DNA of 64,000 nt, taken from the NCBI RefSeq assembly GCF_003385845.1, contig NZ_QRDJ01000007.1:647380-711379 (forward strand). The letters are read 5' to 3'. This document shows, in pieces, positions 51,636 to 52,273 of the stretch. The translations under genes were made by a program, and so were the position numbers. The notes under the pieces were generated by a model. That model worked only from the letters and a program-made list of their open reading frames with translations. It was not told the origin of the DNA and did not search any database. How positions within the stretch are numbered: position 1 is the stretch's first letter; the number at the start of each line of letters is the position of its first letter. The stretch is from Kushneria indalinina DSM 14324 (lineage in GTDB: Bacteria; Pseudomonadota; Gammaproteobacteria; Pseudomonadales; Halomonadaceae).

Positions 51636-51643
51636 TTGTACAA
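51636..51643. promoter_or_regulatory. TTGTACAA palindrome about 110 bp upstream of the next promoter
   Basis: An exact 8-bp palindrome sharing TGTACAAG with the larger palindrome at 51749-51771. It may be an upstream binding site for the same regulator. Position resembles the upstream GacA sites of rsmY/rsmZ promoters, but the sequence does not match the GacA consensus. Confidence 0.35.
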
Positions 51644-51746
51644 GTTGCGAGAAATATGGGTCACCCTGAGGTGAATGTTCTTCAAAATGTCATACAAAAT
51701 CCTGCAAAAACGCTTTCCTGGCCCGGCTTTAACGTTTACAAAAAAT

Positions 51747-51771
51747 TATAATGTACAAGGCTTGTACATTA
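51747..51771 (+). promoter_or_regulatory. TATAAT promoter element overlapped by a near-perfect 23-bp palindrome
   Basis: TATAAT (51747-51752) is a consensus -10. No good -35 lies at standard spacing, which suits an activator-dependent promoter. The arms TAATGTACAAG and CTTGTACATTA (51749-51771) flank one central G, an 11-bp perfect inverted repeat over the -10 and probable start. A dimeric regulator is strongly suggested; which one is not known. Transcription would start near 51759 and run into the hairpin array. Confidence 0.65.
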
Positions 51772-51800
51772 CCCGGCGCTATGCCAGAGTGTGTCTACAC

Positions 51801-51957
51801 GGTCAGCACGGACGCTGACCCGGGATCAACAGGGACGTTGATCAGTACGGCGAGGAACGCCACGGCAGGGATTGCCGCAGACATCGGCCAGGATGGCCAA
51901 AGGCAAGGATTGCCAACCATATCGCCCAGGACGGGCGGTAACATTACCAGGGAAGGA
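51801..51957 (+). ncRNA. Array of seven AGGA-loop hairpins: CsrA/RsmA-binding RNA, sponge-like leader
   Basis: Seven successive stem-loops carry the CsrA core in the loop. They are GGTCAGC/GCTGACC with loop ACGGAC (51801-51820); GATCAAC/GTTGATC, AGGGAC (51824-51843); GGCG/CGCC, AGGAA (51849-51861); CGGC/GCCG enclosing AGGGAT (51863-51877); GGCC/GGCC, AGGAT (51886-51898); GGCA/TGCC, AGGAT (51902-51914); and CGCCC/GGGCG, AGGAC (51923-51937). AGGGA and AAGGA follow unpaired at 51949-51957 and form the Shine-Dalgarno of the next gene. Repeated GGA hairpin loops define the CsrB/CsrC/RsmY/RsmZ RNAs that titrate CsrA/RsmA. No terminator lies between array and gene, so it is probably a 5' leader or dual-function transcript. 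The structure is read by eye. Confidence 0.8.
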
Positions 51958-51965
51958 ACCGAGTC

Positions 51966-52217
51966 ATGACACATCACATCTCCTGCACTCGCTGTGGTCA
52001 CGATCAACAGACGCCGATGGATACCTGCAACGAGTGGGACGAGATTTCCTGCTCCGAGTGTGGCGAGTTTCTGGATACGGTGGGTCACTGGAACGATCTG
52101 CATTCGCCGTCCTTTGCCATGCAGACACTGAACAAGTCCAGGACGCTGACCCTCATGATGGCCCGCGAGAGCCGCCCCATCAACGATCAGCAAATCGGCC
52201 AGCGCGTTTCTGCCTGA
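51966..52217 (+). CDS. Small zinc-ribbon-like protein downstream of the CsrA-type array
   Basis: The 83-residue product starts MTHHISCTRCGHDQQTPMD and has two Cys-x-x-Cys pairs (Cys7/Cys10 and Cys29/Cys32) with Cys21 between, suggesting a zinc ribbon in the first 40 residues. The rest is polar and ends without a recognised domain. I do not recognise a family. The Shine-Dalgarno (GGAAGGA) is itself a CsrA-type GGA site, and seven GGA hairpins lie just upstream, so translation is likely controlled by CsrA/RsmA. A clear terminator follows its stop by 28 bases. Real coding is supported by the ribosome-binding site, the ordered Cys pairs and the terminator. Confidence 0.75.
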   Translation: MTHHISCTRCGHDQQTPMDTCNEWDEISCSECGEFLDTVGHWNDLHSPSFAMQTLNKSRTLTLMMARESRPINDQQIGQRVSA

Positions 52218-52244: not shown

Positions 52245-52273
52245 AAATGCCGCCCCTTGAGGCGGCATTTTTA
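52245..52273 (+). terminator. Terminator after the zinc-ribbon gene
   Basis: AAATGCCGCC (52245-52254) pairs perfectly with GGCGGCATTT (52261-52270) around a 6-base loop and is followed by further T. It bounds the transcript that begins near the palindrome at 51.75 kb. Confidence 0.9.

Follow-up and report, generated by a model that had tools for sequence, protein, structure and literature searches.

A Row of GGA-Loop Hairpins as a Putative CsrA/RsmA-Type Leader of a Zinc-Ribbon mRNA in Kushneria and Related Halomonadaceae

Introduction

Multi-site CsrA leaders and a few mRNAs that serve as CsrA sponges are already known. The SELEX consensus of CsrA is given in PMC7652899 as RUACARGGAUGU, with the GGA preferred in hairpin loops; the same source describes two RNA-binding surfaces on the CsrA dimer and names L4 and R44 as RNA-contact residues. 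A spacing of 18 nt between sites is called optimal for CsrA in PMC4894983, which also provides the precedents for sponge mRNAs, namely the Campylobacter jejuni flaA leader and the Salmonella fimAICDHF leader. In a review table the entry for the Csr sRNA of Halomonas anticariensis reads unknown (PMC7366521), so the Csr circuit of the Halomonadaceae looks little studied.

Here we describe a locus of Kushneria indalinina DSM 14324 found in a 64,000-nucleotide stretch of DNA (contig NZ_QRDJ01000007.1, positions 647,380 to 711,379; hereafter the window), where a row of GGA-loop hairpins precedes a small zinc-ribbon gene. The original prediction for this locus was a CsrA sponge-like array that serves as an mRNA leader. 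At the level of sequence, conservation, stems with compensatory changes between genera, the specificity for GGA and a GGA-containing Shine-Dalgarno sequence give good support to the CsrA/RsmA-type leader, while the sponge half of the prediction is no more than plausible.

Results

The Array of GGA-Loop Hairpins

Seven consecutive stem-loops with GGA in the loop, GGA cores spaced about 15-23 nt and two further GGA in the Shine-Dalgarno sequence had been predicted, and all of them were recovered. A hairpin scan as well as the minimum free energy (MFE) and centroid folds placed seven such hairpins on the + strand of the window at 51801-51940 (Table 1); their loop GGA are spaced 23, 21, 15, 22, 16, and 22 nt apart, and the last of them lies 22 nt from the first of the two Shine-Dalgarno GGA. 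A tenth GGA (51823) is at the foot of hairpin 2, outside any loop. When the leader was folded from 51799 to 51990, all seven hairpins appeared in the MFE and the centroid structures with their GGA unpaired rather than in stems (-68.5 kcal/mol, z -3.1), and only 1 of 200 shuffles was as stable. The seven hairpins are also present in the MFE structure of the whole 517-nt mRNA, the total folding energy of which is not unusual (z -1.06). The loops resemble the SELEX consensus of CsrA (PMC7652899).

On the + strand of the window, 121 GGA hairpins were counted without overlap; their density peaks at seven per 160 nt in the array, and that of the other strand at three per 160 nt. In 60 dinucleotide shuffles of the + strand, no 160-nt stretch had more than four such hairpins, and shuffling the array itself 5000 times gave at most three. 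As the shuffles never reached seven, chance is excluded as the origin of the array.

Table 1. Features of the zinc-ribbon locus; positions are those of the window, except for the tandem array of L002.
Feature	Position	Strand	Remarks
Perfect 11-bp dyad TAATGTACAAG-G-CTTGTACATTA	51749-51771		Inverted repeat overlapping the -35
Predicted promoter TTGTAC-N17-[TGC]CAGAGT	51762-51790	+	Promoter-score rule; extended -10; TTGTAC at 51762, TGC-CAGAGT at 51782-51790, 17 nt between
Putative transcription start	51797-51801	+	7-11 nt downstream of the -10
Hairpin 1	51801-51820	+	Loop ACGGAC, GGA start 51810; 7/7 pairs invariant in six Kushneria
Hairpin 2	51824-51843	+	Loop AGGGAC, GGA start 51833; one pair changed on both sides in the Kushneria alignment
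Hairpin 3	51849-51861	+	Loop AGGAA, GGA start 51854
Hairpin 4	51863-51877	+	Loop GGGAU (alternatively GGA and one extra pair), GGA start 51869
Hairpin 5	51886-51898	+	A-U closes GGA (CAGGAUG), GGA start 51891; unchanged in six Kushneria
Hairpin 6	51902-51914	+	A-U closes GGA (AAGGAUU), GGA start 51907
Hairpin 7	51920-51940	+	Loop AGGAC, GGA start 51929; GGA equally far from the start codon in 39/61 loci, stems compensatory
Shine-Dalgarno AGGGAAGGAA	51949-51958	+	Two GGA, at 51951 and 51955
83-aa zinc-ribbon protein gene	51966-52217	+	Two CxxC motifs; dN << dS
Predicted intrinsic terminator	52245-52272	+	10-pair stem and short T run, 3' of the gene
Tandem array of L002	1869-2141	Reverse strand of the locus (leader)	23-nt unit repeated 11.9 times

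Promoter, Putative Operator and Terminator

The dyad that overlaps the predicted -35 is probably the operator of some regulator. The perfect form TGTACAAN3TTGTACA occurs once in the genome, one more site is found at two mismatches, and the array is absent from the second dyad-like site of this genome (L120). Dyad-like half-sites before the -35 are also found at other Kushneria loci and at part of the Salinicola loci. A second TTGTACAAG was noticed between cdd and the array (51636-51644), where it is visible in the Kushneria loci L002 and L004 too, and is perhaps an additional site of the dyad regulator. Judged by the distance from the -10, the RNA would begin with hairpin 1.

The prediction of no terminator between the array and the gene, and of one after the gene, agrees with what was found. 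A simple scan, which is insensitive and also misses the terminator at 52245-52272, found no terminator-like site between the array and the ORF. The stem behind the gene recurs at +30 past the stop codon in 7/7 of the closest Kushneria orthologues (L001-L007). Among the 20 loci scanned, nine show a post-gene terminator within the stretch examined and 11 do not.

Conservation Within Kushneria

We aligned six Kushneria sequences, excluding L002 for its tandem expansion and the most diverged L008, L009, and L011. The mean pairwise difference was 0.081 in stems, 0.056 in loops and 0.365 in linkers, and in the ORF the synonymous sites differed by 0.387 and the non-synonymous sites by 0.030. Given that stems and loops are conserved while the linkers drift like silent sites, the hairpins are held by selection. 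Hairpin 1, the most distant from the ORF, is among the best conserved (0.027), and hairpins 7 (0.123) and 2 (0.114) are the most variable of the seven, partly through compensatory change. Single-base indels within the array disrupt the reading frames among close relatives.

In this alignment 95.4% of the stem cells are paired, which 6 of 500 shuffles reach, and slid versions of the stem alignment pair 15-38% of the cells. Changes on both sides were found in two pairs, a number that 328 of 500 shuffles match; the covariation score was reached in 6 of 500. Thus, the predicted covariation of the stems is weak inside Kushneria alone, but it was borne out across genera by the SD-proximal hairpin described below.

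A Cassette Shared by Kushneria, Salinicola and Larsenimonas

A predicted promoter (TTGTAC-N17-TGC-CANNNT), the array, a GGA Shine-Dalgarno sequence and the zinc-ribbon ORF together make up a cassette specific to a lineage, namely Kushneria, Salinicola, and Larsenimonas. We examined 61 loci, 30 from the first family search and 31 fetched later. The promoter-score rule (at least 8) is satisfied in 49 of them; these and L002, which was added by hand, form a set of 50 leaders, from which the 11 loci that fail the rule were excluded. The array usually starts 5-15 nt past the -10, and 30-60 nt past it in a few loci.

The 50 leaders contain 173 non-overlapping GGA hairpins, whereas shuffles predict 17.8 (z 39.8). 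When all 64 triplets are ranked for leader hairpins, GGA comes first, followed by AGG, which overlaps GGA. At least two GGA hairpins are found in 45/50 leaders, and none in 5/50. All 50 leaders have GGA at the Shine-Dalgarno sequence, and in 33/50 this GGA is inside a hairpin loop (shuffled-flank mean 15.4, maximum 27 in 300 runs); the corresponding number for the Kushneria loci is 0/10.

A GGA is present at -39 to -30 of the start codon in 39/61 loci, which represent 34 distinct sequences, and an A precedes it in 26 of the 34. In this SD-proximal hairpin, 155 of 204 inner cells pair; when the arms were exchanged between loci in 2000 shuffles, 117 paired on average and never more than 133. The 22/61 loci that lack GGA at -39 to -30 were excluded from this test, and the rows were chosen for GGA and not for pairing, except that the best-pairing GGA was taken at loci with more than one. 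The alignment of related Halomonadaceae agrees with the expectation of conserved loop GGA and stems, the stems being compensatory across genera.

The family search gave up to five loci per Salinicola genome. In 18 Salinicola genomes, the promoter search returned 35 sites that match exactly and another 15 that differ at one position. All of the 33 exact copies examined lead, within 180 nt, into two to five GGA hairpins, and 32 of the 33 into a zinc-ribbon ORF of 63-101 residues; this count leaves out the exact sites G123:C104:44632 and G125:C1:2935050 as well as the one-mismatch sites.

Two Salinicola loci retain the promoter and GGA hairpins without the zinc-ribbon ORF. The promoter of L155 is exact, only a 19-codon frame follows the Shine-Dalgarno sequence, and the leader model R1 matches it at 18.6 bits. 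The promoter of L144 has one mismatch, its first hairpin contains a mismatch, and R1 gave no match there; L149, a relative of L144, retains the ORF. L144 and L155 may be either ORF-free RNAs or decaying copies. At the opposite end of the size range is L002, from a one-contig Kushneria genome, where hairpins 1 and 2 have been expanded into the tandem array of Table 1. Its leader has 30 GGA in 401 nt, in which eight non-overlapping hairpins were counted, and the majority of the repeats lack a clean hairpin fold.

The Zinc-Ribbon Gene

A dN of 0.031-0.042 vs. a dS of 0.50-0.62 in comparisons of the window gene with three Kushneria orthologues indicates clear purifying selection on the predicted ORF, so the locus is first of all an mRNA. 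Profile searches with the window protein gave sub-threshold zinc-ribbon matches and no family above the cut-off, and 13/14 relatives (members of A2) weakly match NCBIfam NF047912, the ECs_2282 zinc-binding family (best E 2.5e-5). AlphaFold performed poorly on the single sequence (pLDDT 48.5); with 22 sequences the mean pLDDT was 77.7 and the pTM 0.48, and the model consists of four short strands followed by two helices. When this model was compared with the PDB by Foldseek, nothing matched at E <=0.001; the non-significant resemblances include small zinc ribbons, such as archaeal ribosomal zinc ribbons and LysW. That the protein might have an RNA-related role is a guess.

The protein has matches in all 10 Kushneria genomes searched, in 31/121 genomes and 7/24 genera family-wide, and in 2/369 genomes of a class-wide sample, both Kushneria. 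In genera other than Kushneria, Salinicola, and Larsenimonas, the weak matches that were inspected have few or no GGA hairpins. The shorter Kushneria relatives L070 and L072 fail the promoter rule; by eye, their Shine-Dalgarno sequences apparently lie between short complementary arms.

CsrA and Stand-Alone RNA Candidates

Counting the csrA paralogues, as had been proposed, gave a single csrA in this genome; the gene is present in 61/61 family genomes searched, and the protein carries L4 and R44. The proposed survey for other sponge RNAs was also positive, as stand-alone Rsm-type candidates were found in Kushneria, Salinicola (L163), and Larsenimonas, with further ones in other genera; some of L036-L041, L078, and L080 are of this kind. 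The Kushneria candidates (L112, L113, and L115; 3/3 genomes inspected), which were identified by position, GGA motifs and terminator, adjoin fdxA. That of the genome studied here (L112 3763-3965, C1:168362-168564) is a candidate RsmZ-like RNA between eno and fdxA; its 205 nt include seven GGA, a terminator and, at the upstream end, a dyad GATCAGCAATGCTGATC. By eye, the interval from eno to fdxA at a Larsenimonas locus (L038, turned, 555-1812) appears to hold about three RsmZ-like units in tandem. Another GGA-hairpin array is found in Salinicola acroporae (G027) at about 411-552 of L164, where the zinc-ribbon promoter was not seen. L176, from another genus of the family, is a candidate stand-alone CsrB-like RNA with many GGA and a terminator. 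Among the neighbouring genes, the cytidine deaminase (cdd) and the MAPEG neighbour were checked, while the names eno, fdxA, mutS, rpoS, and ilvE are our assumptions, in part made by eye from the sequences.

The Rfam comparison that had been proposed gave only a sub-threshold match. At gathering scores no match was found in the window, but CsrB matches the array partially (18.5 bits, E 0.0058; gathering score 71) and L002 at 24.3 bits. Rfam did not recognise the Kushneria candidate L112 either, and is therefore insensitive here. Over the family genomes, the CsrB, RsmZ, and RsmY models matched above the cut-off in 0/61, 0/61, and 0/39, respectively, and weakly (E <=10) in 3, 47, and 39 genomes, respectively, many of the RsmY matches spanning just the final 24-30 model positions. 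Four of six inspected loci with RsmY matches (L077, L079, L081, and L082) were rejected, as they have no GGA hairpin, and L075, with four GGA hairpins beside csrA, was dropped because it overlies a long ORF, which we take to be mutS. No GacA box, the consensus of which we take to be TGTAAG-N6-CTTACA (GacA/UvrY), was found near the array with up to three mismatches, nor at the RsmZ-like candidate locus of the same genome. As that candidate also fails both, the Rfam score and the GacA box weigh little.

Under strict filters, R1 has one match place in its own genome. It also matches L176 (22.6 bits, E 6.8e-4) and L175 (E 1.6e-4), the latter rejected as a relative of the array because the stretch looks coding; since R1 matches a stand-alone candidate and a coding-looking stretch, it is not specific at this level. 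The Kushneria candidates L112, L113, and L115 and the Larsenimonas locus L038 gave no match to R1 above chance.

Discussion

The Array as a Probable CsrA-Bound Leader

We consider it likely that the array is a multi-dimer mRNA leader bound by CsrA/RsmA, through which translation of the zinc-ribbon protein would be controlled, and probably repressed, with a steep response. The features that mark a CsrA-regulated leader are found here: a CsrA with L4 and R44, a Shine-Dalgarno GGA with an upstream site, and constraint on loops and stems. Loop spacings of 15-23 nt and the 22 nt to the Shine-Dalgarno GGA fit bridging dimers that end at the ribosome site, which favours CsrA-controlled translation. 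In the mechanism proposed, the locus would give rise to a short monocistronic mRNA, the leader of which is a row of CsrA (RsmA) hairpins from the transcription start to the ribosome-binding site. CsrA dimers would bridge adjacent GGA loops and the GGA-containing Shine-Dalgarno sequence, so that the zinc-ribbon protein would stay untranslated when free CsrA is high; once CsrA drops, for example when stand-alone Rsm RNAs go up, the leader would be freed and the protein made. As each transcript has some nine sites, enough for about four dimers, a steep response would be expected, and because each copy of the mRNA would occupy CsrA, strong activity of its own promoter might make it a secondary sponge. 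The sequences establish the array and its conservation, the GGA specificity, the architecture of the cassette, the selected ORF and a CsrA with L4 and R44, whereas binding by CsrA, the position of the start, repression as the direction, a steep response and a sponge side effect are what we infer. The sign of the control is not fixed by the sequence because CsrA can also activate.

Several observations point against the leader. The Shine-Dalgarno sequence is outside hairpins in Kushneria (0/10), and hairpin 7, which is adjacent to it, is the least conserved (0.123). Moreover, few pairs vary in the six Kushneria sequences, 5/50 leaders have no GGA hairpin and 11/61 loci depart from the promoter rule.

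Alternative Explanations

In a dual-function sponge mRNA, the leader would mainly sequester CsrA in trans under its own promoter and regulator, with the ORF as a passenger or second output, which we regard as possible, if doubtful. Such a function would be consistent with the constraint on all seven hairpins, including those distant from the Shine-Dalgarno sequence, with the 11.9-copy expansion in one Kushneria, with up to five loci per Salinicola genome and with the retention of promoter and hairpins without the ORF in L144 and L155, and the flaA and fimAICDHF leaders are precedents. The clear purifying selection on the ORF argues against it, as do the retention of the Shine-Dalgarno GGA in 50/50 leaders, which fits a target, and the stand-alone Rsm-type candidates of Kushneria, Salinicola, and Larsenimonas; because Kushneria and Salinicola carry such candidates, the array is probably not the sole sponge. 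Moreover, most L002 repeats lack clean hairpins, and the mismatched first hairpin of L144, which R1 does not match, is as in decay. Still, the array could plausibly act as a sponge in trans, and a CsrA-controlled leader and a sponge role are compatible, not mutually exclusive. It is a tentative and rather unlikely proposal that Kushneria, Salinicola, and Larsenimonas evolved a family of mRNA-borne CsrA sponges, in which a dedicated promoter and regulator would drive the transcript and its array would silence its own zinc-ribbon ORF and drain cellular CsrA, with its size tuned by tandem duplication (12 copies in one species), several gene copies per genome and some loci free of the ORF. It is improbable that the array is an independent sponge sRNA of CsrB/RsmZ type whose transcription merely reads through into the downstream gene. 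The hairpin design is alike, CsrB matches the array and L002 partially, and R1 matches the stand-alone CsrB-like candidate of another genus; however, the Rfam score is far under the gathering score of 71, no terminator was seen before the gene while one lies past it in 7/7 of the closest orthologues, promoter, array and ORF co-occur, and the matches of R1 to L112, L113, and L115 are at chance level. That no GacA box lies within three mismatches also speaks against it, with little weight.

The GGA loops might instead be Shine-Dalgarno-like decoys, standby sites or sites of another protein, even of the zinc-ribbon protein in an autoregulatory loop. The AGGA loops are similar to Shine-Dalgarno cores, zinc ribbons can bind RNA, and the non-significant structural likeness to archaeal ribosomal zinc ribbons and LysW would be consistent with another protein. 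Against this, which makes it quite improbable in our judgement, A precedes GGA in 26 of 34 sequences, in loops, as CsrA prefers, and csrA is present in 61/61 family genomes. Finally, the array could be coding sequence in which the hairpins are incidental, as the mechanical ORF list includes a 72-codon ORF on the + strand (51751-51969) and an antisense ORF. This is scarcely conceivable and is refuted for practical purposes, because single-base indels break the frames among close relatives and conservation follows stems and loops, not codons.

Significance

The series of arrays with two to seven hairpins, together with the 12-copy expansion and the two ORF-less copies, may provide a natural dose series in which to ask at what point a target of CsrA turns into a sponge for it. 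A family of sponge mRNAs, if real, would offer a natural path from a regulated mRNA to a sponge sRNA, or the reverse. A search of the open literature on Csr and on CsrA leaders or sponges in Halomonadaceae, Kushneria, and Salinicola, to which subscription journals were mostly outside the scope, did not find the cassette described in titles or abstract openings. To our knowledge, no gene family has been described with a CsrB-like array that extends from the presumed RNA start to the ribosome site.

Comparison With Known Systems

Like CsrB, CsrC, RsmY, and RsmZ (Rfam RF00018, RF00084, RF00195, and RF00166, respectively, the number of CsrC being our assumption), the array is a row of short GGA-loop hairpins. 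In contrast to those RNAs, it belongs to a coding transcript in which no terminator was seen before the ORF, its Rfam score is sub-threshold and its promoter dyad is a different one. Of the marks of a CsrB/RsmZ sponge sRNA, the repeated GGA-loop hairpins are present, while a stand-alone RNA with its own terminator, an Rfam match at the gathering score and a GacA box are absent. Thus, with its coding transcript, an Rfam score under the cut-off and no GacA box, the array is not a member of the CsrB/RsmZ family. The stand-alone candidates of the Halomonadaceae (L036, L039, L080, L112, L163, and L176) also have several GGA, in the same or related genomes, but end in terminators and have no ORF, unlike the array mRNA.

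Among mRNAs, the pgaABCD leader of E. coli, with six CsrA sites (PMC7652899), is likewise a long multi-site leader that represses its downstream gene. Here, in contrast, there are seven GGA hairpins 15-23 nt apart, which extend from the presumed RNA start to the Shine-Dalgarno sequence with its two GGA, and the same design is repeated across a family of paralogous genes. The C. jejuni flaA mRNA (PMC4894983) is likewise a leader that has been proposed as both target and titrator of CsrA, although it probably binds only one CsrA dimer according to the same source, whereas the site count of the array would allow up to about four, and its titration is hypothetical. By analogy, the array may work like a hybrid of the two, in which multi-site repression of the pgaABCD type would be combined, possibly, with titration of the flaA type.
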